The notes under the pieces: model-generated
What the model was told of the DNA's origin: nothing
Seen by the model: only the letters and a program-made list of their open reading frames with translations
The model's database searches: none
Shown here: piece by piece, positions 8,793 through 33,824 of the stretch
How the letters are laid out: every line of letters starts with the position of its first letter
How positions within the stretch are numbered: the stretch's first letter is position 1
Assembly (NCBI GenBank): GCA_945875545.1
Contig: CAMCKZ010000002.1
Location: 1-64,000 of the forward strand
Direction of reading: 5' to 3'
Length of the DNA: 64,000 nucleotides
Source: Polyangium aurulentum
Lineage (GTDB): Bacteria > Myxococcota_A > Polyangia > Polyangiales > Polyangiaceae
Made by a program: the position numbers and the translations under genes

Positions 8793-9706
8793 CAAAGCCG
8801 GGGCCTCGCCGGGCCACGTTTGAGGTCGTCGTTGCGGCCTTTTTTTGGAGCACCGCGGGCATCGGAATTGAGTCGGCGTCCCTACCCGGTTCGGCGATTG
8901 CGGGCTGGCGCTCGCTCTTCGCGTTGCCCATCGTGGGCCTATTTGCTTTTCGCGATCCTGCGGTGCGGCGTTGTTTTCCCCAGGCCATTCGCGACCCTCT
9001 CGTGTGGTTCACGGCGGCGGTGTACGCGGCGATGGTTCAACTCTTTGTGGTCGCCACAACGCTCACCGGTGCCGCGAGCGCGATATTCTTGCAGTATACA
9101 TCTCCCGTTTTTTTGTTGCTGTTGGCAGGGCCCATGCTTGGCGAGTGGCCCGAGCGTCGAGACAAGGTGGCCATCGGGGTAGCCATGCTCGGAATGCTCT
9201 GCTTTTTCTCCGACGGCCTCGATGCCAATGGGCTCCACGGAAAGCTGCTCGCCCTCGGGTCTGCGCTCGGATACGGACTCTTTCCGATTCTTCTCCGGCG
9301 CCTCCAAAGGCGCGGCGGCACCCTCGGCGAAGCGGCTCCGTCCCTCGTTCTTCCTCTGGCCAATATCCTTGTCTTCGCGAGCGTGGCCCTGCGCGGTGAT
9401 CTCGTCTGCCCTCTCGATGCCTCGGGCTTTCGCCTGCTCATCGGCCTGGGGGTTCTCCAACATGCCTTGCCGTACATTCTTTATCGCCGCGCCATTCACT
9501 CGTTGCCGGCCCTCGATGTGGCCCTCCTCACGCTGATCGAACCCCTCTTGAATCCGTTTTGGGTCTGGTTTTTTCGCGGAACGATCCCCTCGCGCGGCAC
9601 GCTGATTGGCGGGTCGATTGTGCTGACAACCGTGCTTTTTCACACACTTGCGCGTGCCCACTCGGCGCCAAAATACGTGCATGTGGATGAACCCGTTGCC
9701 GACTAA
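8789..9706 (+). CDS. EamA/DMT-family transporter
   Basis: 305 residues, ten predicted transmembrane helices in two repeats, typical of the drug/metabolite transporter (EamA, RhaT-like) superfamily. The first repeat opens with FEVVVAAFFWSTAGIGIE and the second holds GSALGYGLFPILLRR. The GTG at 8789 overlaps the DUF3025 stop (GTGA); an upstream TTG at 8765 would add eight non-membrane residues. Substrates of the family include amino acids and other metabolites; none can be assigned here. Confidence 0.85.
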   Translation: MTKPGPRRATFEVVVAAFFWSTAGIGIESASLPGSAIAGWRSLFALPIVGLFAFRDPAVRRCFPQAIRDPLVWFTAAVYAAMVQLFVVATTLTGAASAIFLQYTSPVFLLLLAGPMLGEWPERRDKVAIGVAMLGMLCFFSDGLDANGLHGKLLALGSALGYGLFPILLRRLQRRGGTLGEAAPSLVLPLANILVFASVALRGDLVCPLDASGFRLLIGLGVLQHALPYILYRRAIHSLPALDVALLTLIEPLLNPFWVWFFRGTIPSRGTLIGGSIVLTTVLFHTLARAHSAPKYVHVDEPVAD

Positions 9707-9717
9707 GGTACGTCTCC

Positions 9718-10707
9718 ATGCGCGACCTCAGTGACCCTCCCGTCTCGTTGCTTGGTCGTTCGAGGGCGCCCGCGTTTGGATCGTATGGAGGTGCGTTGCC
9801 GCCCGTCGATTGGGCGCAACTTCCCACCCGCGGGCGCGGTGCTCTGCGCACCAAACACTGGATCTACGCGACGCTCGCGTGCGATGATTTGCTGGTAGCC
9901 GTCGCCGTCATCGACCTTGGCTACGCCACAAAAGTTTTCGCTTTTGCCTTCGACAAAGTGAGTCGCAGCGTCGTCGCGCGCGAGTCGATTTTGGCACCCC
10001 CCAAGCTCGCGCGCCTCGCTTCAAGCCTCGAGGGCGAGCGGCTCATCGACTTCCATTTCGGCGGATCAACCGTGGTCATGAACCGCGACCGCCATGCCAT
10101 TCGCGCGTCGGTGAAGCTTGGCTCCATCGCCATCGATGCGGAACTCGACGACACGAATGCGCCGCCGTCGATCGGCGCGGTGGTCGATCTCGGAGGCCAA
10201 CATTTTCACGCCACCGAGAAACGAAGCCTCGTGGCGTGGCGGGGTGCGGTCGTCGCCGGCACCCAGCGGTGGGCGGTGCGCGAGGGTGTCGCCGGATTTG
10301 ATTTTTCCTGCGGATTTCCTCACCGTAAGACCCATTGGCATTGGGGCTATTTTCTCGGAACCACCGCCGCCGGAGAGCCTATCGCGATGAATCTCGTCGA
10401 GGGATTTGTCGGCGAGGCCGAGTGCGCGGTGTGGTTTCGCGGCAAGGTGCACGGCGTGGGTGAGGGCCGCTTCACGTTTGATCGCACGCGCTCCTACGGC
10501 AAATGGGAGGTGCGCTCCACCGATGGCGCCATCGATCTCACGCTCACGCCTTGCGACGTCCACGAAGAGTTTCTGGAACTCGGCATCATTGGCGCGCGCT
10601 ACCGGCAGCCGATCGGCCTCTTCTCCGGGTCCATCTCCATCGACGGCGAAAGATTGAACATCGACAAGGCCGTCGGCGTCGTGGAAGACCAGCGCGTTCG
10701 GTGGTAG
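9718..10707 (+). CDS. DUF2804 family protein
   Basis: 329 residues with the layout of DUF2804: an N-terminal RTKHWIYATLACDDLLVAVAV block, repeated beta-strands, a central HRKTHWHWGYFLGT motif rich in His and Trp, and a C-terminal VEDQRVRW. The fold resembles lipocalin/AttH-like carotenoid hydratase relatives, so binding of a hydrophobic ligand is possible, but no function is established. It sits 11 bases after the EamA gene and 25 bases before the DTW gene and is probably co-transcribed. Confidence 0.75.
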   Translation: MRDLSDPPVSLLGRSRAPAFGSYGGALPPVDWAQLPTRGRGALRTKHWIYATLACDDLLVAVAVIDLGYATKVFAFAFDKVSRSVVARESILAPPKLARLASSLEGERLIDFHFGGSTVVMNRDRHAIRASVKLGSIAIDAELDDTNAPPSIGAVVDLGGQHFHATEKRSLVAWRGAVVAGTQRWAVREGVAGFDFSCGFPHRKTHWHWGYFLGTTAAGEPIAMNLVEGFVGEAECAVWFRGKVHGVGEGRFTFDRTRSYGKWEVRSTDGAIDLTLTPCDVHEEFLELGIIGARYRQPIGLFSGSISIDGERLNIDKAVGVVEDQRVRW

Positions 10708-10732
10708 CCGGAACCGCTATACATCCAATACA

Positions 10733-12028
10733 GTGAATCACGACGCACCGACAGAACATATACCGCGCTCATCCTCGGTAAGCCCGCTACCCGAGCTCAC
10801 GGGCCCTCGGGAGATGACGGCGCGAGCTCTCTGTGCCCGGTGCCGCCGACCCGAGCCCGTGTGTTATTGCACGCATTTATCCACGATTCCATCGGCGACG
10901 CGCGTTGTGGTCCTTCAGCACCCGCGGGAAGAAGACCGGCCCATTGGTACGGCGCACATGGCGAGCCTGTGCCTCCCCAATTCGGAACTGCACGTGGGTT
11001 TGGCGTTCGACGACACGCCGCTGATGGCCCGCCTTCTTAGCGACCCCCAGCGCAAGGCGGTGCTGCTGTACCCCGGTGAAGGCGCCCTCGACATCGTCGC
11101 GCATCCGCCGAAAGAGCCGCTCACCATGATCGTCGTGGACGGCACCTGGGCCCAAGCCAAAAAACTTGTGAAGCTGAATCCGCGTTTGGCCGCCTTGCCG
11201 CGCGTATCGTTTGTGCCGCCAACTCCCAGCGAATACCGCATTCGACGCGAGCCCAAAGACACCTACCTTTCGACGCTCGAATCCCTCGTTCTTGTGCTCG
11301 GTGCCCTCGAGGGCGACCCCCATAAATTCGCGCCGATGCTCGCGCCCTTTCGCGCCATGATCGATCGGCAGCTCGACTGCGAAGAGACGTTTCAGGGTTC
11401 ACGAACGCGCAAGCGACGAAAAGTGAAACGGCCCGAACGCTCCTCGCTGCCCGACGCGCTGACGAGTTCGGCGCACACCCGCGTGTGCGTCAGCGGCGAA
11501 GCCAACGCGTGGGCCTATGCCTCGCCGGAGCGCAAACGCGAAGGCTATCGCGACGAGGTGGTGGTGTGGACGGCATTGCGTTTGGAGACCGGCGAGTCGT
11601 TCCAGATGATTGCCGCGCCCGTCGGTGCGCCGTCGGTCGGAACGCCGTTTCACGCGGAAATTTCCATGGCTTCAATGATCAACGGGGCGACGCGATCCGA
11701 GCTTCTTTCGGCCTGGTCGGCCTTTGTTCGACCCACCGACGTGCTCTGTTCGTGGGGTCATCACGCGCCCGCGCTCTTTCTGCACGAGGGTGCGAACTTG
11801 CCGGATGCGCGCGTGGATGTGCGGTCGCTCGCGCGCATTCTTGAGCACGGCGCCGTGGGCACGTTGGAAGACCATGCGGCGCGTTTGGGCGAACATTCGA
11901 CGACGCCCCATCTAGGCTTTGAGCAGGGCCTTGAGCAGGGCTTTGGCCGCGCCGCCCGGCGACTCGAACTGCTTACGCGAATCACTCGCCACATCATCAC
12001 GACAGACCCTTCGCCGAAGCGGTGTTAA
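10733..12028 (+). CDS. DTW-domain tRNA aminocarboxypropyltransferase with C-terminal extension
   Basis: 431 residues. Residues ~30-220 are a DTW domain (TapT/YfiP type), which makes acp3U in tRNA from SAM: a zinc-like CARC...CYC cluster, VVLQHPRE, and VDGTWAQAKKL containing the DxTW signature. TapT-like proteins usually end soon after this. Here about 200 further residues follow a basic linker (RTRKRRKVKR). Their pattern (HAEISMASMINGATRSELLSAW, then VDVRSLARIL and LEDHAARLG) recalls a DnaQ/RNase H-like exonuclease with lost acidic residues. GTG start at 10733; an ATG at 10814 is an alternative. Confidence 0.8.
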   Translation: MNHDAPTEHIPRSSSVSPLPELTGPREMTARALCARCRRPEPVCYCTHLSTIPSATRVVVLQHPREEDRPIGTAHMASLCLPNSELHVGLAFDDTPLMARLLSDPQRKAVLLYPGEGALDIVAHPPKEPLTMIVVDGTWAQAKKLVKLNPRLAALPRVSFVPPTPSEYRIRREPKDTYLSTLESLVLVLGALEGDPHKFAPMLAPFRAMIDRQLDCEETFQGSRTRKRRKVKRPERSSLPDALTSSAHTRVCVSGEANAWAYASPERKREGYRDEVVVWTALRLETGESFQMIAAPVGAPSVGTPFHAEISMASMINGATRSELLSAWSAFVRPTDVLCSWGHHAPALFLHEGANLPDARVDVRSLARILEHGAVGTLEDHAARLGEHSTTPHLGFEQGLEQGFGRAARRLELLTRITRHIITTDPSPKRC

Positions 12029-18544: not shown

Positions 18545-19039
18545 ATGAACGAGAAGTCTGTAAGGGTAGCAAAAGGCGAAAACGACGTGGCGCGAAACCG
18601 CCGCGTAGCCTTCGACTACGCGATCGAAGAACGCATCGAGTGCGGAATCGTTCTTGTCGGCAGTGAGGTCAAATCGATGAGGCAGGGCCTCGCCGACCTC
18701 TCGGATGCCTACGCCACAGTCGATAACGGTCACTTGGTTTTGAAACAGCTCCATGTGGGCCAGTGGTCTTACGCCAAGTCGTTTCCCCACGACGAACGCC
18801 GCAACCGAAAGTTGCTCGCGCATCGCCACCAAATCGACAACCTCGAGAAAGAACTCGCGCGGGGCGGCAAGACCCTCGTGCCTTCGCGGCTCTACTTCAA
18901 AGACGGCCGACTCAAGGTCGAACTGGTGCTCGGCACGGGCAAAAAGAAATACGACAAACGCGCCGATATCGCGAAGAAAACCGCTGATCGCGAGGCCCGC
19001 TCCGAAATGGATCGCGCCCTGAAAGGCAAAACCAAATGA
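18545..19039 (+). CDS. smpB: SsrA-binding protein
   Basis: 164 residues. SmpB escorts tmRNA to stalled ribosomes for trans-translation. Family landmarks: RVAFDYAIEERIECGIVLVGSEVKSMRQG, AYATVDNGHLVLKQLHVGQW, RKLLAHRHQIDNLEKEL, LVPSRLYFKDGRLKVEL and the basic tail KKKYDKRADIAKKTADRE that enters the decoding centre. The ATG at 18545 gives the normal length. The stop overlaps the next ATG by four bases. Confidence 0.97.
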   Translation: MNEKSVRVAKGENDVARNRRVAFDYAIEERIECGIVLVGSEVKSMRQGLADLSDAYATVDNGHLVLKQLHVGQWSYAKSFPHDERRNRKLLAHRHQIDNLEKELARGGKTLVPSRLYFKDGRLKVELVLGTGKKKYDKRADIAKKTADREARSEMDRALKGKTK

Positions 19040-19320
19040 GCCCCGTGCAGGCTGCCGCGTTTCGCTTCGTCGATGGCGGAGAGGGCACAGTGCTGTCGCT
19101 CCTCGGCAATGCGATCAAGCTGCGATCAAGCGTGCCGTCGCCGCCTGGCAGTAGACGTGAGGCCGTGCTCATGGGCGCCGACCTCATCTTCAAAATAAAA
19201 GTACATGCATCCCGCAAGCAAGAAGATGCATTCTACATGATTGAAGGTCGCCTCTACGATGCAACAACACGCGTCATCAACGCGCTGACGAAGGCCACAG
19301 CCGAGACCGCGGCCCCATAA
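19036..19320 (+). CDS. Small protein coupled to smpB, possibly PilZ-like
   Basis: 94 residues. It starts with an ATGA overlap on smpB. The beta-rich pattern GEGTVLSLLGNAIKLRSSV, PPGSRREAVL, LIFKIKVHASRK and FYMIEGRLYDATTRVINAL resembles a short PilZ-like barrel, but the RxxxR and D/NxSxxG c-di-GMP motifs are not convincing. Function unknown. Its last 44 bases overlap the convergent membrane gene. Confidence 0.65.
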   Translation: MSPVQAAAFRFVDGGEGTVLSLLGNAIKLRSSVPSPPGSRREAVLMGADLIFKIKVHASRKQEDAFYMIEGRLYDATTRVINALTKATAETAAP

Positions 19321-20023
19321 ACGGCGCAGTCTGCGCGGCGGGCCGTTGCCACGCGAAGCCAAGAACCGCGCAAAGTCCTGTGAGGAGCAGGGCGACAAAT
19401 CGCACGCGGGCCTCAAGGCCTTGCGCCGGGTCGGTCGTCAGCGCGTAGGCGTGCGTGCTTGGAAGAGCAGCCCACATCCATTCGCGATGATGGCGCAGTA
19501 TTACGACCGAAAATACGAGCAAAAATGCACGCCATGGCCCCTGCCCGCCCAGGGCCATGCCGAGGCCGCCAAACGCAAAAGCGGCCGCGAAGCCCACGCG
19601 CCCGATGGCCAGGGTGTCGCTCGCGGGGAACCTTCCGAGCGCCGCGACCAGGGCACCTTCGAGGCCCAAGAGCAGCGCCGCACCGGTGGCAACGGCAAGG
19701 GCCGTGGAAAAAAGTGGAACGACCGTGGCGCCCCCCCTGCGCGGGCTGGCGGCGGCGGCGCGAAGATACCGCAAGCGCTCACGGGCCCCTTGCGACCACA
19801 GCCACCCGAGAGAAAAAGCGACGAGTGGAATGCTCATCGCCGTCAAGCGATCGACCGAGGCATGTTCGCGCGAAAGAGGGCCGACGAGCGACAGCGGGAA
19901 TGCGCCGAGCAAGAGCAGGCGGATGCGACCACTCACCGACGAGCATCGTGCGAGGGAGGTAACGTCGGCGGCGGCGACCCGAATGAAGAACAACGTGCGC
20001 CGAAAAAAAGCCGCGATCAGCAT
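19277..20023 (-). CDS. Polytopic membrane protein of a degenerate ABC-type operon
   Basis: 248 residues with about six hydrophobic segments (for example IRLLLLGAFPLSLVGPL and ALAVATGAALLLGLEGALVAAL). Together with the two genes upstream it has the layout of an ABC-2-type exporter: permease, ATPase-like protein, second membrane protein. Start ATG 20023 overlaps the ATPase-like gene by seven bases. No precise family recognised. Confidence 0.65.
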   Translation of the reverse strand: MLIAAFFRRTLFFIRVAAADVTSLARCSSVSGRIRLLLLGAFPLSLVGPLSREHASVDRLTAMSIPLVAFSLGWLWSQGARERLRYLRAAAASPRRGGATVVPLFSTALAVATGAALLLGLEGALVAALGRFPASDTLAIGRVGFAAAFAFGGLGMALGGQGPWRAFLLVFSVVILRHHREWMWAALPSTHAYALTTDPAQGLEARVRFVALLLTGLCAVLGFAWQRPAAQTAPFMGPRSRLWPSSAR

Positions 20024-20829
20024 GCCACGACCTCGTCGATTTCGCCGGAATGCTGGGCAATTGCCTCGGTAAGTAGGCCGTCGATGGCGCGGCCATCGCG
20101 GGAGCGAACGACGAGTTCACGGGCATCTTGGCTCAGTTTTATTTCGATGCCGCTTCGAAGCATTCGCGCGGCGACCTGCTCCAAATGCCCTCCGCGCACC
20201 GTCACGGCCAACGCCGGCGCGCGCAGAGAGGCCACGCCCGCGGAAACCGACGCGGCTCCATCTTCGTTCACGACGATGACATCCTCGACCCATCGCTCGA
20301 CCTTCGTGCCCGGCGTGAGCAAAATAAATACGGGAAGTCCGCTCGCAGCACACGCGCGCAAAAGCCCGGCAGCAACGCGTTCGTCGGCCCGACTCACGAG
20401 GGTTTCGGGCGGCGGCACGACGAGCGCAGCCGCCTCGCCCAGCCCCCGCACAAGGCCCACGGCGAAGGCAAATGCAGCCGCCGATGAGAGGTGGTCGGTA
20501 CGAGCATCTTTCGGCAATTTGGCGGACCGAAGGGCAGCGTCGCCGCCCTCGCCGAGGATGACCCTGGCGAAGGACGCCACCTTGTGGCCCGGCGGCAAAG
20601 GCACAATATCGCCTAAGAAAACGATCTGTTTGGTGCCGTCGTTTTGCACCGCGCGCATGCGCCCCTCGAAGGTTTGCGAGCCCCGGCCGAGGGCGTCTTC
20701 GATGAGGGCTGCGTCGCCGAGAGAGCTTGAAATCAGCCCGTGAACGCCGGGACCGAAGACCCCGCTAATGGGCCCAATGCTCCGCTTGCCGTGCCGAATA
20801 ACGATGCGGTCGAGGACGAGTTGATTCAT
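20017..20829 (-). CDS. ABC-ATPase-like protein with lost catalytic motifs
   Basis: 270 residues. It can be aligned by eye with ABC ATPases: LVLDRIVIRHGKRSIGPISGVFGPGVHGLI corresponds to the start of the nucleotide-binding domain, LPPGHKVASFARVILG to the post-Q-loop region, LSSAAAFAFAVGLVRGL (114-130) to the LSGGQ signature helix, and AALVVPPPETLVSR to Walker B. But the P-loop position reads SSSLGDAALI without the GxxGxGK lysine, the signature lacks Gln, and Walker B has Pro where Asp-Glu is expected. ATP hydrolysis is therefore unlikely. It overlaps both neighbouring membrane-protein genes. Confidence 0.6.
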   Translation of the reverse strand: MNQLVLDRIVIRHGKRSIGPISGVFGPGVHGLISSSLGDAALIEDALGRGSQTFEGRMRAVQNDGTKQIVFLGDIVPLPPGHKVASFARVILGEGGDAALRSAKLPKDARTDHLSSAAAFAFAVGLVRGLGEAAALVVPPPETLVSRADERVAAGLLRACAASGLPVFILLTPGTKVERWVEDVIVVNEDGAASVSAGVASLRAPALAVTVRGGHLEQVAARMLRSGIEIKLSQDARELVVRSRDGRAIDGLLTEAIAQHSGEIDEVVAC

Positions 20830-21503
20830 GGCAAATCGAAGGTGCGTTCCGCCAGACGAAGAAACCGGCGCTCACTGACCATGCCGTAAAGCATGAGAAT
20901 TGCCAGGGCTGTGTGCACCGTGAGCGCTAGAAAAAAAGCGGGTCGCGCATCGAACGCGATGAACTGAAGGAGCAGCGAACGCAGCGGCGAGAGCCACGTG
21001 GATGCGACCTCACCGACCGGGGCAACTTGAGCCAGCGCCTCCGCGAACAGGGTGACGCCGACGAGAATTGCCGGGGCCAAAAGCGGATGCGACGTGAAGC
21101 GCACCGCGCTCGCAATGGCCGTCGCGAAGGTGCCGAGAGCTGCCGCGACGGACAAACCGACGAGGGCGACGGCGAGAGGGCGCGCTGCATATACCGGGGA
21201 AATGGCCACGTGAATCGCAACGAACGCGGCGACAATGGTGCCCATCGAAGCCCACGCCACGGCCCGTGCCGCGCGGCGCCGCGGAGTCCGGTCAAACAGG
21301 GCGGCGGCGGCAAGATTGGCGTTGGCCTCGGGCACCAGCGCCAAGGCGACGGCGACCAAACTGGGCAGCATCGAAATCGCAAGAATGGCCCGGGGGGCGC
21401 GCAGATTCTCGGCAGAAATAAAGATGTGCAAGAGGGCGAGCGTTTGGCGCACGCCCCAAGCCGTGAGCAGCAAAAAAAAGAGTCGGGGCAGCAGCACGCG
21501 CAT
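20826..21503 (-). CDS. Polytopic membrane protein, partner of the ABC-like protein
   Basis: 225 residues from the ATG at 21503; the long open frame upstream is not membrane-like and is rejected. About six transmembrane segments are visible (VLLPRLFFLLLTAWGV, ILAISMLPSLVAVALALV, ALAILMLYGMV). The stop overlaps the next ATG by four bases. Probably a permease-like subunit; substrate unknown. Confidence 0.65.
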   Translation of the reverse strand: MRVLLPRLFFLLLTAWGVRQTLALLHIFISAENLRAPRAILAISMLPSLVAVALALVPEANANLAAAALFDRTPRRRAARAVAWASMGTIVAAFVAIHVAISPVYAARPLAVALVGLSVAAALGTFATAIASAVRFTSHPLLAPAILVGVTLFAEALAQVAPVGEVASTWLSPLRSLLLQFIAFDARPAFFLALTVHTALAILMLYGMVSERRFLRLAERTFDLP

Positions 21504-21601: not shown

Positions 21602-21628
21602 CGGGGCTTTTCGGCGAGGGTCTACCTA
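21602..21628. repeat. Dispersed gene-end repeat, copy C
   Basis: Contains TTTTCGGCGAGGGTCTACCTA. On the minus strand it begins at the stop codon of the sigma-54 activator gene, as copy A does for ilvE. Confidence 0.65.
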
Positions 21629-22993
21629 CTCGGCCGCGAGAAATTGCCCGATGTAGCTGGGTATTTCGCAGGAATCCGCGGCGTGTGCGAATGTTCTTGA
21701 CTTTTCTTCCTGCGGTGCGCCGGCGCGCCGTCGCCGATCCGCGGCCGGGCGAACGCTCGCAACGCGGCGCCGAAATGTCGTTCGTGCCATGCCCGCGACC
21801 TCGGCCGCGCGCGTTGCATTGCCGCCCGCCTCGACGAGAATCTCGACGGCTCGCGCCCCGGAAACGAACGTGTGACGATGGGGTACCCCGCCCAATCGCG
21901 CCTCCGCCGCGCGAATGTCGTCGGAGGAAATCTCGTAGCTTGTGCCCAAGGCCACCGCGCGCAAAAGCACGTTGCGCAGCTCGCGCACGTTGCCCTCCCA
22001 AGGCATGTCCATAAGGCGGGCCATCGCGCTCGGAGCCAAGGCGACGCGGCGCAATTTTGAAGCGTCTTGGGCCACAATAGCCAACGATATCGCGACGATA
22101 TCTGTGGGCCTGGCCGCGAGCGGAGGCGTCGAAACGACGAGCACCTCAAGGCGATGGAGCAGATCGTTTCGAAACTGTTTGGCGCGCACCGCGACGCGTA
22201 AATCGACGTGGCTCGCGGTGATGATGCGAACGTTTGGCTGAAGGGCGGCGCGTCCACCGACCGCGCGAAACCCGTAACCGTCGAGAGCGCGCAGCAACTT
22301 GGGCTGCACGTCCAAAGGCAGTTCGCCGATTTCATCCAAAAACAGCGTGCCGCCGTGAGCCTGCATCAAGAGCCCCGGGTGGTCGCGATCGGCGCCCGTG
22401 AAGCTCCCCTTCGCGTGGCCAAAAAGCTCGCTCTCGCACAGCTCACGGGGAAGCGATGCGACGTTGGCGACGACGAACGGACGCGCGCTTTTGGCCGATT
22501 CGTGGCCCCCGTGGAGCGCCGCGGCCACCGCGTCTTTGCCCGTTCCACTCGGGCCGTGAATGAGCACGGGCACCTGCATCGGTGCAAAAAGACTGACCGT
22601 GCGCGCAAGGGCGCGAAGGAGCGCGCTCCGTCCGCGAAGCCCAGGCACCGCCGCGTGTTCCAGAGATTCACCAGGCTCCAACAGGTGCACGACAAGATAC
22701 TCCTCGCCGAAACAGAGAACCGCGCCGGGCTCAATCGCCTGGCAGCGCACCGCCAGCGCCCCAACATACACGGTAGCACCGGGCCTACACGTTAACACCA
22801 TGGCCCCGTTGAGGCCCACGGACAAGTCCGCGTGGTGACGCCGCGCGCCCACGCCCCGAATCACAATATCGGAAGCGGGATCGGTGCCCATGGAATGGAG
22901 CCCCGGCGCGAGGGCCACAAGAGGATTTTCGGCGTGCGACGCAAACTCAATGGCCACACGAGGAGACAACGGACGGGAAGACAGAGCGCTCAT
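21626..22993 (-). CDS. FHA-domain sigma-54-dependent transcriptional activator
   Basis: 455 residues. An N-terminal FHA-like beta domain (about 12-105) for phosphothreonine recognition is followed by an AAA+ sigma-54 interaction domain: Walker A GPSGTGKD (148-155), GSFTGA (196-201), Walker B LFLDEIGE, and VRIITASHVDLR. The C-terminus has a Fis-type HTH (NATRAAEVAGMARTTFRRRV). The sigma-54-contacting loop is normally GAFTGA; here Ala is replaced by Ser. FHA-fused activators are typical of myxobacteria, where Ser/Thr kinases control them. No sigma-54 promoter was recognised nearby. Confidence 0.9.
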   Translation of the reverse strand: MSALSSRPLSPRVAIEFASHAENPLVALAPGLHSMGTDPASDIVIRGVGARRHHADLSVGLNGAMVLTCRPGATVYVGALAVRCQAIEPGAVLCFGEEYLVVHLLEPGESLEHAAVPGLRGRSALLRALARTVSLFAPMQVPVLIHGPSGTGKDAVAAALHGGHESAKSARPFVVANVASLPRELCESELFGHAKGSFTGADRDHPGLLMQAHGGTLFLDEIGELPLDVQPKLLRALDGYGFRAVGGRAALQPNVRIITASHVDLRVAVRAKQFRNDLLHRLEVLVVSTPPLAARPTDIVAISLAIVAQDASKLRRVALAPSAMARLMDMPWEGNVRELRNVLLRAVALGTSYEISSDDIRAAEARLGGVPHRHTFVSGARAVEILVEAGGNATRAAEVAGMARTTFRRRVASVRPAADRRRRAGAPQEEKSRTFAHAADSCEIPSYIGQFLAAE

Positions 22994-23158: not shown

Positions 23159-26100
23159 TCAAACCAACGCGATGCCGAGGGTCTTGCGGAGGCCGAAGTA
23201 AGCGTCGCTGACCGAAAACAGCATCACCTCCCGGAGCTTGTCTTGTGGCGAAGGATCGCCCGCGACGGTTGGTTCCGCGAGCACCATTCGGCGGGCTACG
23301 TCGAGGTCGCCGCAAAGCAAAAAGCCCGCGCGGCAACTCGTGAATTCGACCGCTTGCACCCATCGCTTCAAGTCAGCCACCTGCCCGCCCTCAAGAAAGC
23401 GCTGAACAACGACGCGCAGGTTTTCCTTTTCCCGGGTCTCGATCAAGCGCTCGAGATCCGCCGCCGTGGCCTTCACCGCGGCCTCAATCGAAGGGTCCAC
23501 TTCCACGTCTTGGCGCACGATGCAGAGCGCGGCGAAAAACAGAACCTTGATTTCGAGGTAGGTCGGAAACAGCGTACGAATGACGTGTTCGCCGCGGTGC
23601 ATGGCCATGTGCCGACCCGCCAGAAACGCCATTTCGAGGGGAGAAGCGCCGGAGAGAACGCGCTGCCCCACGTAAGAAACGGGCGGGGCAATGCCCGCGC
23701 AAACGAAGGCATTCGGCTCGTCTTCGCGCAGGTAAACGTCCGGGGCGCGAACGCCAAGGACGTCTGCGGCCCAGCGCAACGTGGTGACCGCCGTCACGGT
23801 GCTGGTGGCGTCTTGGCGAGCCTTCGAATCCAGCGCCGGCACCTGCCGCGCACCAACGAGCTGGTTCATGCGGGCCTTCGCGGCGGCCGGCGCAATCATC
23901 TCGAAAACCTTGCCCACGAAGAGGTTGTCATCTTTGTGGAAGACGTTCCGAACCCAGTGCTCGTTGTCGAGGCGCGCTCGAATCTTGGGCAAGCCCTCGC
24001 CGCGATTCGCCTCAAAAAAGCGACGCTCGTCGTCGTCGGCTTTCTTGAGAAAAACCAGCGCAGAGCTCATGCACCACGTGCGGTCTGCATCGCCTTGACG
24101 GGCGTAAAGTTTGTACAAACTCCGATACGGATCGACCCGCAGCGGGTCTTTCGCGAGCACCAAACAATGCTCGCCGACCGCCGAATCAATCTGCCCCGTG
24201 GCCTCATAAAGTTCCGCCAAGATTTGGCGTTCGACCGCTTCGTCGGGCTTGTACTGGGTCGCCATTTTAAAGGCTTCGATGGCCGCATTCGGCTCCACGA
24301 GGCGGTCGCGGTAAATAAGACCGAGGTTATGCCACAGCTTAAAATGCAGGTCCGCATCGGATATTGATGCAGTCTGCAGGCGCTTAACCATGCGCCGAAA
24401 AGCACGTTCAAGACTCTTCCAGTCTTTGCGCTGGGTGAGAATTTTGTTCACGCGCTCGAAGGCCTCGAGCAGCCGTGGGTTCGCGTCGAGAGCCTCTTCA
24501 AAGAGCTGCAGCGCGCGGTCTGCGTCTTGCTCTTTGTCGCGATAGAGTTGAGCGACGGTGTACACGTAACGGCTACGACGAATGGGGTCCGGCTCGGCGG
24601 CGATGATGCGTTCGACCGTTTCAATCACGCGGCGCCAGTCTTCGAGCTGTTGGTACAGGGCCATGAGGCGGTGCAGGAGCGGGAGCTCCAACGGCCGCAA
24701 CTCGCGGGCTTCGTCGAGGGCGTCGATCGCCTTTGGGACGTTCTTTTCCTTGTCGACGAGCACGTCGGCGATGTCCAACAGGAGCCCGTAACGGGCGTCG
24801 CCGTCGAGGGTTGCATCGAGCTCCTCGCGTTTGAATGCCACAACCTGACGCCAGTCTTCGGCCTCGGTGTAGAGCTCGATGACCCCTCGAAGCGAGTCGC
24901 GATGCGATGGCTCGAGGGCGAGAGCCTTCTCGAATGCCGATATGGCCAGGCGCGCGTGGGCCTGCGAGCGGTAGATGGCGCCCATCTTCGCGTGAGCCTC
25001 GACGAGCAGTTCGACCTCGCTCGTGGGCAGCAGCGTCGTCAGTTTTTGAAGGTGCGCGAGCCCCGCATTGGGGTCGTTGAGTTTCACCGCGACGCCCGCC
25101 ATTACGAGCAAAATCGCGTGGTCTTGGGCGTCGAGTTGATGCGCCGATGTGTAGGCACGCAAGGCTTTTTCGTCGGCACCGAGCTCCGCGCAGGTGCGTC
25201 CGAGTTTGACGAAAAGGCCGTGCTGTTCTTCGCGGGGACGATGACCCGCTTTGCGCGTGAGGAGGTTCAGGCACGACTGGGCCTTCGCCCAAGCCTGCGC
25301 CTGGATGAAGCCGTCCACGAGGCGCTCGGCCGCGGCCTCGGAATCGGGGTCGAGTTCGAGAGCGGTTTCGAGGGCGAACTCCGCGCCCTGCGAATCATCG
25401 AGGTACTTCGAGCGTACGTCGGCGAGGCGCACGAGACACGCGGATCGTTCGATCGGTTCCACGAGCAAGCTCTGTTCGCGATCAAAAAATCGAGCAGCCG
25501 CTGCGAAGTCTCCGTCGTCGACGGCGATGCGCGCCAGCCAGCGAAGACACTGGAGATCGTCTGGGTTTGAGTCGATCGCGCGCAGGTAAAGCTGGCGTGC
25601 TCCCGTGCGATCGCCCATGCGTTCATCAAGAATTTGCGCGGCCTTCACGAAGGCCTCCGCGCGGCGTTTTGGTTCGACGAGGCGGTCGCCAAGACGCTGC
25701 AGCGTGTCGAGGGCTTGCACGACGTCTCCGGTCTTCTCGTAGAGCCGCGCGAGCACCTCAAGAACCTGAAGGTTGCGGTCGTCGAGTTCGGATTGGTTGC
25801 GGTATGCATCTATCGCCCGCTCGAACTCACCCGCCTCGAAAAGTGCCTCGCCCAGTTGGCCGTAGATCGAGGCCTTGTCGCTCAGACTCGTGGCCGCACC
25901 GAGGTGCCGCTCGTAGGTGCCGACGAGCGCGTCGAAGCGCCTCATGTGCCGATAAGCGCGCGACAAGATCGCGTAGGCCCGCTGCTCACTCGGATCGAGT
26001 TCGAGCGCGGCTTCAAGCATGGTGACAGCCCCTTCGCTGTCGAGGAACTGCTCCAACCGCAGGTCGGCACCGCGGACCAAGAGCTCGACCCTCTCCCGCG

Positions 26101-29100
26101 GCGAGACCGCGGCCTTGATGCGCGCATCGATGACGACCGCGATCTCATCCCATCGACCAAATGTACTTGCAGTCCGCAAGTATCCGTCGAGGGCGCCGCG
26201 GTGCTCCACGAACGCCTCGAAGGCCTCGCGGTAAAGCTCGCAGGCGGTCGAAATTTCGCTCAGATCGTTCTCGAAAATTTCCGCGGCTCGGGCCAATGCG
26301 TGCGCCCCATCTGGACGGGCGCCGAGGGCTCGCCCCTTGGCCGTGAGAACCGTCGCCAACTGCCGGCGGTCGCCACGATCCGCGTGAATTCGCACGAGGG
26401 CATCGACGAGCGGGGCCATGGTGGGATCAAGCTCGAAGGCGCGCCCGTAGTGAATGACGGCCTCGTTCGCGTCGTTTCGGACCCTCTCGAAATGGCCGCC
26501 AAGTTCGAAGAGCAACTCCGCGCGCTCCTGCGCCGAACGGACCGTTTCAAGGGCACGACGGAGCAAGGATTCGACCTCTGCGTCGTTCCCGCGCCGACGC
26601 TCGAGGGCCGCCATTTGGCGAAGCGCGCGCGCACTCGAAGGCTCTAGTTTGAGGACCTCTTCGTAGAACGGACGCGCCTGCTCGGGGCGGTCGAGAACCT
26701 CGCCCCACCACCGCGCCATGTGGAGGCAAAGCGCCAAGCGCGCCTTCGTTTCGAGGGGGCCCGCGAGCCAGTCGGCCACCGCACCAACCACATCGGGCCA
26801 GCGACCGGAATTACTGGCAATTCGCTCGACACACGCTGCTGCGGGGGCCGAGGTAGGCTCGTCGCTGAGGGCATTCAAAAATGCCTCGAAGGCTTGCTCG
26901 GGGTCGGCCAGCGGACCTTCAAAAACATCGCCGATCTCGAGCAGGAATACCGATCGCTCCGCACCCTCGGAGGCGGTGTCGAGCTGCGACAAACGGAGTT
27001 CCACGAGGGCATCCCAGCGCTTGGCCGCGCGAAGGCATTTGGCCAATTCGGATTGGGTCTCGGGAGTGGAACTCGCCCCGTCGAGGGCGACGGCCAAGTC
27101 GGCTTCGAGGTCTGCGTCGTGAAGGTGCGTACGGGCGTGTTCCATCGCGCGGCGCAAATGCACGCCCCGGTTTTCACCCTCACACGAGGTCGCGAGCTCT
27201 CGTTCGAGGGCGACCACATCGCCATGGCGACCCGCGCGCAGAAGCAACTCAAGGCGCGCCTCGGCGAGAGGACCCTCGGCAGATGAAAGAGCCTCTGCTC
27301 CGAGGATTTGCAGTGCTTCGTCGTCGGCCTCGAGGGAGCCCACGAGAATATGCACCGCGCGAAGTACCCACGCGGAACGCTCCTCGGCGTCGATGAGGGA
27401 TTTGCTGTGCTCCACCAAACGCAAGACCGAGTCGACCAAGTCTCGCGGATGCCCGCCCTGCTCGTCGATGGCGACGACCGCCCGCAGTGCCGAAAGATTG
27501 GCGGGGTCCATGTGCAATACACGGAACCAAATCTCGCGCGCTTGGCTTGGCGCTTGAAGTTTCTCGGCGGCGAGGCGCGCACGCTGCGAGAGCACGTTGA
27601 TGCGGGCTTCACCGTCGACGACGTCTGCGAGGCGGTCAAGAGTTCCGTCGACGGCAGGCCAATCGCCTTCGAGTTGGTAAAGGCGTGCGAGCTTGCCAAG
27701 AGCCTCGGGATCTTCGCCTTTGAGGTCGAGAACGTAGCGCCAAGTGTCGATGGCCCGACGACGATCGCCCAGGCGATCTGCAGCAATATCGGCGATGCGA
27801 GCCCGAATGCGGGCCTCTTGCGTTTCGGACGTTGCGAATTCCAATCGCGAGACGAGAACGCCGTCGAGGGCCTCCCACTGACCGCGCTGTTCGTAGATTC
27901 GTTCGAGGCCGTCGAGGGCTTCGGTGTTCTGGCGGTCGTAGGTTTGAACGAGCTCCAAGTACGCCGCCAACGCGCCGTCGGCGTTGTCCACATGCTCTTC
28001 GCGAAGCTTCGCCAAGCGAAGGAGCAGTTCCACACGGCTCGCGTCGTTGTCGGCTTGCGCGACCCGCAGTGCCACGACCTTTTCGAGCTCGTCCCAGCTC
28101 TCGAGGGAGTCGTAGATGCGATCAAGTTCTTGCAAGGGCCTCGCGGCATTTGGCTGCGCGTCGTGGGCCCGGCGGTACACGGCCTCGGCCCGCGAAATGT
28201 CGCCGAGTTCGCTCTCAATCACGTCCGCGAGGGCGAGCTCCAAACCCAAACGTTCGTCGCCATGGGAGACGCGGGCGATGCCCTCTTCGAAGGCCTGCGC
28301 CACCGATTCCCAGCCGTCTTCTACGCGTTCCGCCAGTCGCTTGGCGAGCTCAAGGGACCGCTCGTCGGCGGCGTCAAGGCGCAGAAGATACAGCGAAACG
28401 CCCAGCGCCCGAACATCGTCGCTTAGAGTGACCTCGTAGACTTTCGCGAGCCGCACGCCTTCGTCGACCCGCTCGCCGGCGTCGGTGCAGTGCCGCAACA
28501 AGCGAGCCAGGGCCGTCGCCAATCGCTCACCATCGCCCGCGTTCTCAAGCCACGGCACGAGGTATTCGCGCGCCTCGACGATGCCAACTCCGGCACCAAT
28601 CGCCCGTTCGAGAAGCTCGTAAGCTTCGATGCGCGAAGGCTCAAAAGCCAGCACATCGACGGCCGCGCGGACGGCGACCGCTGCACGCCCGGGCAGCCCC
28701 AATGCCAGCGCCGCAAACCGAAGGCGAAGAGTCGTGGCCTCGTTGCCATCGTGGGCAACCTCGACGTGCCGCTCCAGCGTCGCCGCCAGTTCATCGCGCT
28801 GCCCCGTTCGCTCGTAAATTCGTTCCAAATGCGAAAGAGCTGCCGCAAGCCTTTCGTCGATCGACAGGGCCGCGCGCAGTAGGCCAATCGCCCGCCCGTC
28901 ATCGCGAAGCGCTGAATCGGCGCTGGAGGCCCCTTCAAGGAGCCATGTCGCCCGCTGCTCATCGGAGCTGCCCGGCGATGCCGCGAGGCTCTCTAGGGCC
29001 TCCACAAGCTCACCATGGCCCCCTACGAGGCCCGCCAGTCGCTGCGCCTGCTTCAAGGCCGCATCGGCGTCGTCCGCCACGACGAGAAGCTTAAGTGCCG

Positions 29101-32100
29101 CCGCAAAAGCTGCGGGTGCGTCGCCGAGGCTCTCTTCGTGAAGGCGCACGAGACGCGCAAGAATCGCCGCCTGCTCGTGGGCTTCCGAGGTTGTGCGGAG
29201 TTCGACTTCAAGCGAGCGAGCGACGCTTTCGAGACGGCCCGCTTGTTCGTCGATGCGCGCCAAGACCCTGGCTGCAGCTTGCGCGGCTGCGGGCACTTCG
29301 AGGAGCTGTTCGAGGGCAGTCAGAGCATCGCTGTAATCCGCGTCTTCGTTCAACACTTCTTCGTAAAGTGCGACGGCCCGATCTGCCTGGTTCAACCGTT
29401 CGAAGACGACGCGCGCGAGGCGGCAATGCAGCCGCGGCCGGTAGTCTCCACGCACCGTGAGCCGCTGCTGTTCGAGAAGTTCGGCAAGATCGCTCCAGCG
29501 GTTTTCGAGCTCAAACAGGGCAGAGAGACGCCCCTGCGCGACGGCGTCGTCGCTGCGAATCGCCAGCACATCGCGGTAGGCGTCGATGGCGGCGCCCACG
29601 TCTGCCATGTGCGTTTCAAGGGTGGCCGCTACCTCAAGACCGAGGGTAATTCGTTCATCATCGGCCACGGTGAGGGAGCGTGCGCGGCAGGCGTCGAGAA
29701 GAGCCCGGTAGTCTCCAATGCGGCGAAACGAAGCTTGGGCAGCTTCAAAAAGTGGGCGGTCTGCTCCGCCCGGTGCCAACGCTTTTTCATAGGCCTGCGC
29801 CGCGCGGCGATCGTCCTTCAGATGGTCGGTTGCAAGGCGTGCCACGCGGGTCCACAGGAGGCTCGCCTCACCGGGATCGTGACCCTCAACGCCGCGTGCG
29901 CGGGTCGTCAAAAAGTCGGCCAGCTCGGCGTGACGGGCAAGGCGCGACAAGAGTGTTTCCAGCTCCCGCGCCACATCTTCGTTCGACCCATCGAGCTCAA
30001 ACGACGAACGAAAACGGTCAAGCGCGCCCTCGCCATCGCCAAGTTCTTCGAGGGCAAATGCGCCGAGCCGTGCGAGCAGCAACGCACCGACACGCGCGGG
30101 CTCCCGACGGGCAAGCGCGCCCGCCGCCGCCAGATACGCGACGCCCTCGGAGGTGCGTCGCGCCAGGCGTTCTGCGTCGTCGATGGCACCCTCGGAATAG
30201 CCATAACCGAGGCGCTCAAGGGCCGTGTCGAAAGCCAGTTTCGACTGGCCGTCGGCGTCGTGAAGACGACTCAATTCCGCGAGGCGCTCGTCTTGCTCAA
30301 GGCCCGTAGTGGCGTTCGCAATCGTGCGAAGCGTGCGAAGAAGGCGACGGGCGTCTCCGGTCTCGCGAAACAACACTTCGAGGCGAGCCGAAAACCGCGC
30401 CGCCTCGGAACCCGTGCAGAATACATCAAGAGCCACGCGAGCTTCATCGAGCCCTCCGCGTGCCGCCGCCTCGTAGGCATCGACCGCAGCGTTCGCGTCA
30501 GCAAGAGGCCCCGCCAGCAATTCGCCCAGACGAAACGAAAGGTCGGCCCGCTCCGATTCTACGGACGAACGCTCGCACCGGCGCTCCAAGATCGCGCGCA
30601 AGGCAACCCACGACTGCTCTTGCCGATGAAGGCGCTCGATCGCATCGAAGGCATCGAAGGCATCGGCGGCGTCACTCTCTGCGTCCAACACCGCGTGCCA
30701 CGTGGCCACTGCGGCATCGGTGCGCGACGCGCGACCCTCTTGAAGCCGTGCGAGGCGGCGCAAAATGGCCAGGCGCGCGCCGGGTTCAACACCGAGGTTC
30801 AGCCGAAGAGCCAAAAGGCCCTCGAGCCCATCGTCGTCGTTTTGATGAGCAAAAATGCTCTCAAGACGTTCAACGGCCTTGGGCTCGTGGGTGTCTTTGA
30901 CCTCCGCGAGGAGCACCGCCACGGCGGCAGCCAGGCGGCCCGCACGTTCTTCAAATTCTGCGAGGGCGAGGCGGTACGTCGTGACGATGGCACTCCCCGC
31001 GGCGAGCGACGCCAAGATGGAACCAAAGGCCTGCGCCGAGCGCTCAATGGCCGTTGCCCCAACGAACCCCGCGACAACCGCCAGCAGCTCGTCGTCGGCG
31101 GGATCAATGCAGAGTGCATGAATACGTGCCGCATGCTCTTCGTCTGCCGAAGTCCCTTGCGTTCGGGCGAGGTCGGCGACGCTTAGCCAATGCGCCTTGC
31201 GGTCCCCGGCGGGGCGATCATCGGCCGCGAGTGACCGATGAAGGAGAGACAGCGCTGCGAGGTCGCCGGCCGCTGTGAGAAGTTTGATGAGCAAGCTTGC
31301 CGCCGCGTCTCGCACCTCGGCGCGCAGGACAAGGGCCTCAAGAAGGGCCCGCGCGTCGACGTGGGTCGCGTGCGAATCCAGGACGATTTCCAAGCCTGCG
31401 ATGGCACCGGGCGCATCATTTGCGGCACCGGCCAAGAGTCGCGCGAGCGAAACACGTGAAGCAACGCGCGTTTCGGTCGTCTGAGCTTCGTGGACCTGCC
31501 GTTCGAGGAGCTGGCGCAGTTTTTGCGTTTCGCCGGCGCGGGCCAGGAGATCCGCGAGGGGTTCGGCCAACGCACCGTGCAGCCCATGCTCTTCGATGGC
31601 GGCCTCGAGAACCCGGGCGGCGCCCGCGGCATCTTGGAAACCTGTATCATGCACGCGAGCCAAACGGAGCTGCAGCTCGCGACGCTGCCCGCCATCGGTG
31701 GCGCGATCGAGGGCCGTTTCGAGAACGGTCTTCAGTCGCTCAAATTGCCCCGCCGATTCGTAAATGCCGGAAAGCAGGACCACCGCGCGCGCGAACAGCG
31801 GGCTCTCGGGGCCGTACGCCTCGAGCACCGGTGCCACGCGGGCCGGATCTTGATGAGCCCTCCAGGATGTGGCTGCCCACGCGAGACCAAATTCTCCGGG
31901 CACTTCTTCAAGCGCGCGCCGGGCCTCAAGTACCGCGAGCAAACGCTCCGCCGCACCTTGAGAGAAAGCAGCCTCCAACACGAGTTCGAGGGGCGCGTCT
32001 CCGACGGGGACACACGCAAGCGCGTCGAGGCGGGCCTCAAGAGCGGCGGGCCCGTTGCCTTCGCGCTCCTGCAAATTTCCTATGCGTAGCGCGAGATGGC

Positions 32101-33205: not shown

Positions 33206-33824
33206 GGTAGTTATGAAACCAGCTAAAAAAAGAGGGGCGTGCGCGCCAAAAATCGTACCATTTGACGAGGCCTCGGCGAAGGCCAACGCGACCAGCGCCG
33301 CGAATAATCTCGCCGGTTTCGCTCCGTGACAGCCCGAACCACCGCGCGCGAAAAGGCACCGGCGCAATGGCCTGTCGCCGCGCCGCCGCCGAGTCCGACC
33401 ATCGCGTGTGTGGAGGGCCGCGATGACCTCTCGCGCGCGCCCCAAGCGCCCATGCCGTTCTAGCCGCGAGGGTCCACGCGAGCCCTGCGCGCAGACACCG
33501 GAACGCCTCCGGCCCTTAAACGTCTCCGGCCCTTAGGCGGACGCTGGGAAACGGCGGGCCACCCCCAAATCGTCGTTTCGGCTCGTCAAAATACAGAGCC
33601 CTGTTTTCCCTCGCGGTTGGTTTTCGGCGAGGGTCTTGCTTGATGGCGTCCGCGTTTCCAAGCACAGTTCGAAAAACGCTTAGCTCGCCGAGGCTGCCTC
33701 CCTCGGGCTGTCTTGATCGACGACGCGCCGATTTGAGGCGCCGCGCGGCTCCCAACATCCGCGCGAACAGGCCCCGTTTCGCTCGAATGTGCCGACGGCG
33801 GGGGCCCTGTCAATGAAAATCGGT
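33206..33824. other. 619-bp intergenic region before the giant TPR gene
   Basis: No convincing gene; short open frames here lack family features and ribosome-binding sites. It holds a gene-end repeat (copy D) and a 16-base direct repeat (33503-33518 and 33520-33535, one mismatch). A TTGACA on the minus strand (33808-33813) lacks a good -10. The promoter of the giant gene should lie here. Confidence 0.5.
33616..33636. repeat. Dispersed gene-end repeat, copy D
   Basis: Contains GGTTTTCGGCGAGGGTC, sharing the core with copies A, B, C and E. Located about 190 bases downstream of the TPR lipoprotein stop. Confidence 0.6.

Follow-up and report, generated by a model that had tools for sequence, protein, structure and literature searches.

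An ABC-type operon with a dead nucleotide-binding cassette conserved in Polyangiaceae

A 64,000-nucleotide stretch of the Polyangium aurulentum genome (GenBank assembly GCA_945875545.1, contig CAMCKZ010000002.1, positions 1 to 64,000; hereinafter the window) carries on its minus strand, from 21503 down to 19277, an operon in which a protein laid out like the nucleotide-binding domain (NBD) of ATP-binding cassette (ABC) systems is encoded between two polytopic membrane proteins. The first gene codes for a 225-aa polytopic protein in the place of an ABC-2-type permease subunit (TM1, 20826..21503), the middle one for the 270-aa NBD-like protein (20017..20829), which we term the pseudo-NBD, and the final one for a second polytopic protein of 248 aa (TM2, 19277..20023). 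All starts are ATG, and TM1 overlaps the pseudo-NBD gene by 4 nt and the latter overlaps TM2 by 7 nt, a spacing compatible with translational coupling of the three genes. The coordinates and overlaps given for this arrangement in the initial annotation, which had been made from the DNA alone, are correct. We show here that the pseudo-NBD is linked by profiles to a family of ABC-derived cassettes, dead in their main catalytic motifs and encoded with two membrane proteins, which occurs in about 80 species of one myxobacterial family and is maintained by purifying selection.

At the place of the P-loop, the window's pseudo-NBD reads ISSSLGDAAL and lacks the Walker A lysine of the GxxGxGK[ST] consensus; its signature region, LSSAAAF, lacks the Gly-Gly-Gln of LSGGQ; its Walker B region, ALVVPPPETL, lacks the Asp-Glu pair, with PPPE instead of xDEP; and its H-loop region, ILLTPGTK, lacks the histidine. 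The absence of the P-loop Lys, the LSGGQ Gln and the Walker B Asp-Glu, on which the initial annotation had based its reading of a dead ATPase, is thus borne out, and the list extends to the H-loop His and the signature Gly-Gly. These motifs were taken from an ungapped reading, because from LS onward the window's protein matches its relatives gap-free; a gap introduced by MAFFT in the Walker B region was judged by eye to be misplaced. With the three window proteins as single sequences, no ABC match was recovered in Pfam or NCBIfam, nor with the pseudo-NBD as a single query among PDB sequences, so its ABC likeness escapes one-sequence searches.

The relationship emerges through profiles. The congener G002 possesses the same operon at the same place beside smpB, with identities of 45% for the NBD, 44% for TM2 and 62% for TM1, the last covering only the part present, as the gene is cut by a contig end; its pseudo-NBD is likewise devoid of Walker motifs, with PGPP instead of xDEP at the Walker B place. 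The other congener searched, G001 (83% complete), yielded no match. When a two-sequence profile was run against the 183 genomes of the order, it picked up G128 weakly (8.9e-4), where two membrane genes enclose a degenerate ABC cassette (ABC_tran E 0.012, below the cut-off). With this G128 protein as query, relatives were recovered in 19 of the 183 genomes at E<=1e-10; further profiles covered the class with 317 genomes (A4, 21 rows) and Polyangiaceae with 108 (A6, 57 rows). The A6 profile recovered the pseudo-NBD family at E<=5e-40 in 80/108 Polyangiaceae genomes, including Sorangium, Polyangium and Minicystis. Of these 80, 78 are read in the motif tables as 79 rows, with the window included and G031 entered as two fragments; the two not included are G158 and G171. 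Outside Polyangiaceae, the best match in the 209 other genomes of the class has an E-value of 2.0e-39 (A4 profile), and the four such matches that were read (G044, G177, G225, G253) have intact Walker motifs. These searches stayed within the class and scored 7 (317-genome) or 21 (108-genome) candidates per genome, so that divergent members resembling the window's may escape them. A contig scan yielded 12 loci, of which 11 are family members from Polyangium, Minicystis, Sorangium and one Deltaproteobacteria metagenome-assembled genome (MAG); Minicystis and Sorangium belong to Polyangiaceae. As complete chromosomes are among the members, the family is no metagenome artefact.

Since the 57-row profile contains most members, the family E-values cannot count as independent; the window's membership is tested independently by a hidden Markov model (HMM) built without the window and G002. 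This recovered the window's pseudo-NBD with an E-value of 5.8e-7 and the congener's with 4.9e-12 (Z=4000), as against 0/300 shuffled copies at E<=10. The sole extra row of that search (win-135, E 4.4e-7) is a stop-to-stop window open reading frame (ORF) taken as the same gene. An HMM of the smpB-linked subset matches the congener's pseudo-NBD only (2.4e-5) and misses the window's, and an hhalign comparison of A1 with A5 also links the window's protein to the family (probability 66, E 5.5e-5). The window's pseudo-NBD is linked to the ABC superfamily through profiles only.

Several candidates were discarded along the way. G175:C165 lies inside the family's score range (8.5e-46) but has intact motifs, making the score gap an imperfect divide; locus L165 of an Acidimicrobiales MAG was drawn in by the pattern scan, and its best-matching ABC protein has an intact Walker A. 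Two weak matches of the two-sequence profile were rejected, G138:C366 as its coordinates fall inside what is by eye a sigma54-type-AAA-like ORF, and G113:C1 for its three internal stops. The P0002 match in G039 (E 1.2e-4) falls within a long ORF for a permease, next to which an ordinary ABC ATPase (GPSGAGKS) is encoded, and the one plasmid match in tblastn with the window proteins (E 0.3) was also set aside.

To gauge the losses, motif counts were made over 75 near-complete relatives, excluding the window and three partial rows, beside 10 intact ABC proteins selected as nearest or next matches. Neither the Walker A Lys nor the H-loop His is present in a single relative (0/75 each), and both are present in 10/10 comparators; the second Gly of the signature is retained in 9/75 as against 10/10, and the Walker B Asp in 8/75, all eight of which have both Asp and Glu as do all comparators. 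The Q-loop position is occupied by Q in 4 comparators and by E in 6, and it varies among the relatives (A, P, L and others). The altered motifs are accordingly a conserved loss among the orthologues, a check that the initial annotation had proposed. Column entropy (0 being the most conserved) ranks the sites of the lost Lys, Ser/Thr, Gly-Gly, Asp, His and Q between the 30th and 83rd percentiles, with T, L, A, V, G, S and others found where the Walker A Lys would stand. Conservation in the family lies at other sites: a new Asp in the P-loop and a kept Gly (65/75 each) are both at the 5th-6th percentile, the Asp having no counterpart Asp in the 10 intact ABCs; an Arg follows the signature in 69/75; and the Walker B Glu (70/75) and the Pro next to it (75/75) are at the 0-3rd percentile. 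The typical P-loop motif of the family is G-x-P-x-D-G-T, a string absent in the window, and the window and G002 are more altered still, as the Walker B Glu is gone in them too. Because the eight members that keep both Walker B residues, every one of them in the clade we call B, lack the P-loop Lys, the pattern suggests that Walker A was the first to go.

Structural modeling of a Minicystis member from a 12-row alignment (mean predicted local distance difference test score [pLDDT] 84.3, predicted template modeling score 0.67) indicates that the pseudo-NBD family has the ABC NBD fold. The model matches the ABC NBD 5x40_A with a Z-score of 23.7 and a root-mean-square deviation (rmsd) of 2.5 over 221 positions, followed closely by NosF (Z 23.6) and ABCA4 (Z 23.4). 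The NosF/ABCA alignments take in the C-terminal domain, and since these long alignments have rmsd >10, the two domains are oriented differently in the Minicystis model. Profile comparisons agree: the family profile recovers the PDB chains of ABCA7 (E 7.2e-47) and NosF (E 2e-30), and ABC_tran scores above its gathering threshold in 3/3 members scanned, the G128 member lying below it (16.6 vs 25). The DrrA model gives a nearly full-length match, far below its cut-off, in 2/3 NBDs scanned. In the window's own protein, the one fairly predicted part is the C-terminal 67 residues (block means 59-76 from residue 211), a ferredoxin-like domain (20020..20220, minus strand; residues ~204-270) in the place of the NosF C-terminal domain; it matches residues 223-283 of NosF 7o0y_B (VIA-align: Z 6.7, rmsd 1.9 over 60), and other ferredoxin-like folds match it too, with Z up to 8.8.

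The family shows the hallmarks of a system under constraint, in line with the claim of the initial annotation that it is maintained. The ratio of nonsynonymous to synonymous substitution rates (dN/dS) of the NBD is 0.15-0.54 in 28/28 close pairs of relatives (the window not being among them, as its relatives are too distant), and those of TM1 and TM2 are similar (0.09-0.56); smpB has a lower dN/dS than the NBD in all 5 pairs that have it. A maximum-likelihood tree of 86 rows groups the ten intact proteins in one clade (100/99) and requires one change of the intact/dead label. From the shared losses, the dN/dS below 1 and the single clade of intact comparators, we conclude that the dead ATPase is conserved and not a product of recent decay. 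The tree is further consistent with a single old loss, probably early in Polyangiaceae, without proving it.

The cassette is also co-inherited with its membrane partners. Hydrophobic genes lie on both flanks of the pseudo-NBD in 67/78 relatives, mostly in the order TM1-NBD-TM2; the other 11 include contig edges, one NBD-TM2 fusion (L150) and ORFs overlooked by the script. Gene calls at 39 loci came from a simple G+C-position script, which failed to call several genes, including TM1 of the window. Among the remaining membrane proteins, 70/73 TM1 and 71/74 TM2 fall in one cluster, a grouping obtained with composition correction off, such that it may contain chance links between hydrophobic sequences. 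One of 32 family TM1 proteins matches an ABC-2 membrane model (ABC2_membrane_3, 1.6e-6), and 0/33 TM2 match any ABC family; the window's TM1 has no match in Pfam or NCBIfam, and its TM2 has no ABC match in either. In L150 (G025) the pseudo-NBD and TM2 are fused in one frame (ORF of 578 aa), as they also are in L162, and such fusion hints at a physical NBD-TM2 contact.

Around the operon, smpB (18545..19039, plus strand), convergent with it, is a positional landmark common to part of the family. It occurs near the operon in the fetched DNA of 19/78 relatives and is convergent in 18 of these 19, as in the window; in four more of the 78 (G157, G160, G161 and G170, fetched with short flanks) coordinates place a convergent smpB ~4 kb off. 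As it lies elsewhere in others, for example on the same contig at ~70 kb (G008) or ~190 kb (G143), this linkage holds for only part of the family. A small plus-strand ORF (19036-19320) overlaps the end of smpB in the window, and its 3' end overlaps that of TM2 by 44 nt; a cluster of small ORFs (c4, 10 loci) adjoins smpB in other species, at the same place as this one. Upstream of the operon lies a gene (21626..22993, minus strand) for an FHA and sigma54-activator protein, whose adjacency does not imply operon membership: it matches Pfam Sigma54_activat at 7.6e-54 and FHA at E 0.051, below the FHA cut-off, and motif alignment finds its Walker A intact (GPSGTGKD) and its DE present. Upstream of that gene is a 3428-aa ORF (23159-33445, minus strand) with tetratricopeptide-like repeats by eye. 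The remaining neighbors vary by clade, with a sigma54 regulator, an FGE-sulfatase domain and DUF362 proteins at a Sorangium locus and a VWA protein at a Polyangium locus; at L122 they are a MacB/FtsX-like gene and a kinase gene.

Clade B shows a more specific association. Of its 24 tree loci, 18 carry a neighboring gene for a membrane protein with a dead sigma54-activator-type AAA+ domain (L128 [9066-11381], L127, L129, L132, L133, L134, L137, L170, L111, L113, L115, L118, L123, L125, L126, L131, L139 and L168). This ORF of ~760-1010 codons is divergent from the pseudo-ABC operon in 17/18, and its N-terminal membrane part has hydrophobic segments in 9/9 checked. Aligned gap-free with an intact activator, the protein is missing the Walker A Lys and has a loop Asp in 18/18, and in its Walker B the Asp is replaced and the Glu changed to Asp in 18/18. 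Among the six loci without the full protein, L116 has a partial copy; in G035 the gene lies ~18 kb away from the operon, and G106 has fragments of it on different contigs. The presence of this second pseudo-ATPase suggests a non-hydrolytic, signaling role.

Taken together, we favor, at a rough probability of 55%, the interpretation that the operon encodes an ATP-independent, ABC-2-like complex of regulatory or scaffolding function descended from an ABC-2-type transporter. Under this proposal, an ABC-2-type transporter would have given rise to a three-subunit membrane complex of TM1, NBD and TM2, probably assembled as a TM1-TM2 pair with two copies of the NBD. The cassette would then have given up both binding and hydrolysis of nucleotides, probably in one event early in the history of Polyangiaceae, with the pseudo-NBD thereafter retained by purifying selection, most likely as the ATP-free cytosolic half of the complex. 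Its ABC fold and C-terminal domain could clamp both membrane subunits and pass conformational change between these and a cytosolic partner. The window's copy would be an extreme member, with the Walker B Glu also gone. ATP-driven transport is predicted to be absent, and the new P-loop Asp suggests a cassette fixed in a nucleotide-free state, both being predictions from sequence; we infer the ATP-independence in the cell, the stoichiometry and the regulatory or scaffolding role from the features described above. A bolder version, which we offer as speculation, would make this a class of ABC complex turned into a signal relay without ATP: the P-loop Asp would mimic nucleotide phosphates and lock the cassette in one state, and in clade B the complex would form a two-pseudo-ATPase module with the membrane-bound sigma54-type AAA+ protein, in which the Walker A Lys would have been lost and a loop Asp gained independently.

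Several observations weigh against this interpretation or its extension to the window. Retention of the Walker B Glu in most relatives is odd for a non-catalytic domain. The AlphaFold model of the window's pseudo-NBD has a mean pLDDT of 44.6, too poor to judge the fold; the ABC layout read by the initial annotation is supported structurally for the family, through its Minicystis member. The family TM1 and TM2 HMMs miss the membrane proteins of the window and its congener. The window's TM1 shows no link to the family TM1 in hhalign (probability 0.3), and its membership rests on gene order and hydrophobicity; TM2 is linked weakly, hhalign pairing 172 columns co-linearly with the family TM2 (probability 33, E 4.7e-4). 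As to history, the ten comparators in the tree were hand-chosen, which leaves the single loss unproven, and the position of the window pair in the tree is unsure, since its long branch (2.13 + 0.72 changes per column) meets another long one, that of G128. Finally, the pseudo-AAA+ protein is absent in the window's genus (0/3 genomes at E<=1e-10).

Among the alternatives, the membrane pair may be a passive conduit, that is, a channel, scramblase or gradient-driven permease, with the pseudo-NBD acting only as a chaperone of folding and assembly. The nucleotide site is indeed gone, and a mean column identity of 40% for TM2 (33 rows), greater than the 31% of the pseudo-NBD (57 rows), is what one would expect if the membrane part were functional. 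However, TM1 (30%, 32 rows) is no more conserved than the NBD, in a comparison that is rough given the different alignment sizes, and a purely structural cassette has no obvious need of the new loop Asp and the kept Glu-Pro; we hold this option to be doubtful. Less credible still is that transport is powered by an intact ABC-2-type NBD encoded elsewhere, in partnership with TM1-TM2 or with the pseudo-NBD, the borrowed ATPase that the initial annotation had entertained. The window's genome, G000, has 10 profile matches at E<=1e-18 (the window's own included, the others known as matches alone), and exporters that are heterodimers with a single degenerate site are familiar (reviewed in PMC7756269). 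Yet such heterodimers are impaired at one site of two, whereas here one NBD gene has been stripped of Walker A, signature, Walker B Asp and H-loop alike. Moreover, the surrounding DNA contains an intact ABC NBD pattern at 2/79 loci (L104 and L125; the window is among the 79, and 62/79 stretches are >=8 kb), so a lender ATPase is not generally linked, and the pseudo-NBD is retained as well.

We consider it quite improbable that the P-loop G-x-P-x-D-G-T is a reworked site binding a second messenger or an oddly posed nucleotide, with the cassette as a sensor: the strong conservation of the loop Asp and Gly, and the absence of this Asp from intact ABCs, would fit such a site, but the site where the Lys was lost varies and the window is without the string. 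The least probable explanation is that the window's copy is an unused relic in decay, even if the family functions elsewhere, for despite the loss of the conserved Glu and the very long branch of the window pair, the three frames remain open in two species at 45%, 44% and 62% identity, where neutral decay should have broken them.

ABC transporters are defined by their use of ATP. The operon's only cassette is dead in its Walker A Lys, signature Gly-Gly, Walker B Asp and H-loop His, yet it is kept with its membrane partners in ~80 species; such a family would make ATP-free function of the ABC scaffold directly testable, and the neighboring dead AAA+ protein of clade B would add a rare pair of linked pseudo-ATPase genes. 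The matches listed from CC-licensed PubMed Central, so far as their available text goes, deal mainly with single degenerate sites, mutants and unrelated subjects, and give no account of such an ABC system in myxobacteria.

Of known systems, the family is closest in layout to DrrA, NosF (of NosDFY) and the ABCA NBDs, with which it shares the ABC fold followed by a C-terminal domain and the placement of the NBD in an operon with permease-like genes. Unlike in these, the Lys of Walker A, the Gly-Gly of the signature, the Asp of Walker B and the His of the H-loop are gone, and the Q-loop position is unconserved; unlike ABC-2 transporters with a separate NBD, the family has TM genes almost without a Pfam match. 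FtsEX-like ABC systems serve in signaling, not transport, and FtsE is an intact ATPase, unlike the pseudo-NBD; a periplasmic domain or a connection to amidases, for which no dedicated search was made, did not come to light in the present family. As in these systems (PMC7668044), an ABC-derived membrane complex is proposed here to act as a signal relay. Like the heterodimeric ABC exporters TM287/288, BmrCD and TAP (PMC7756269), the family keeps divergent catalytic motifs under selection; unlike those exporters, which combine a degenerate with a working site, it has a single NBD gene from which most catalytic motifs are gone. The hallmark loss of degenerate-site exporters, according to PMC7544095, is that of the Walker B Glu, the very residue kept in most of the pseudo-NBD family.

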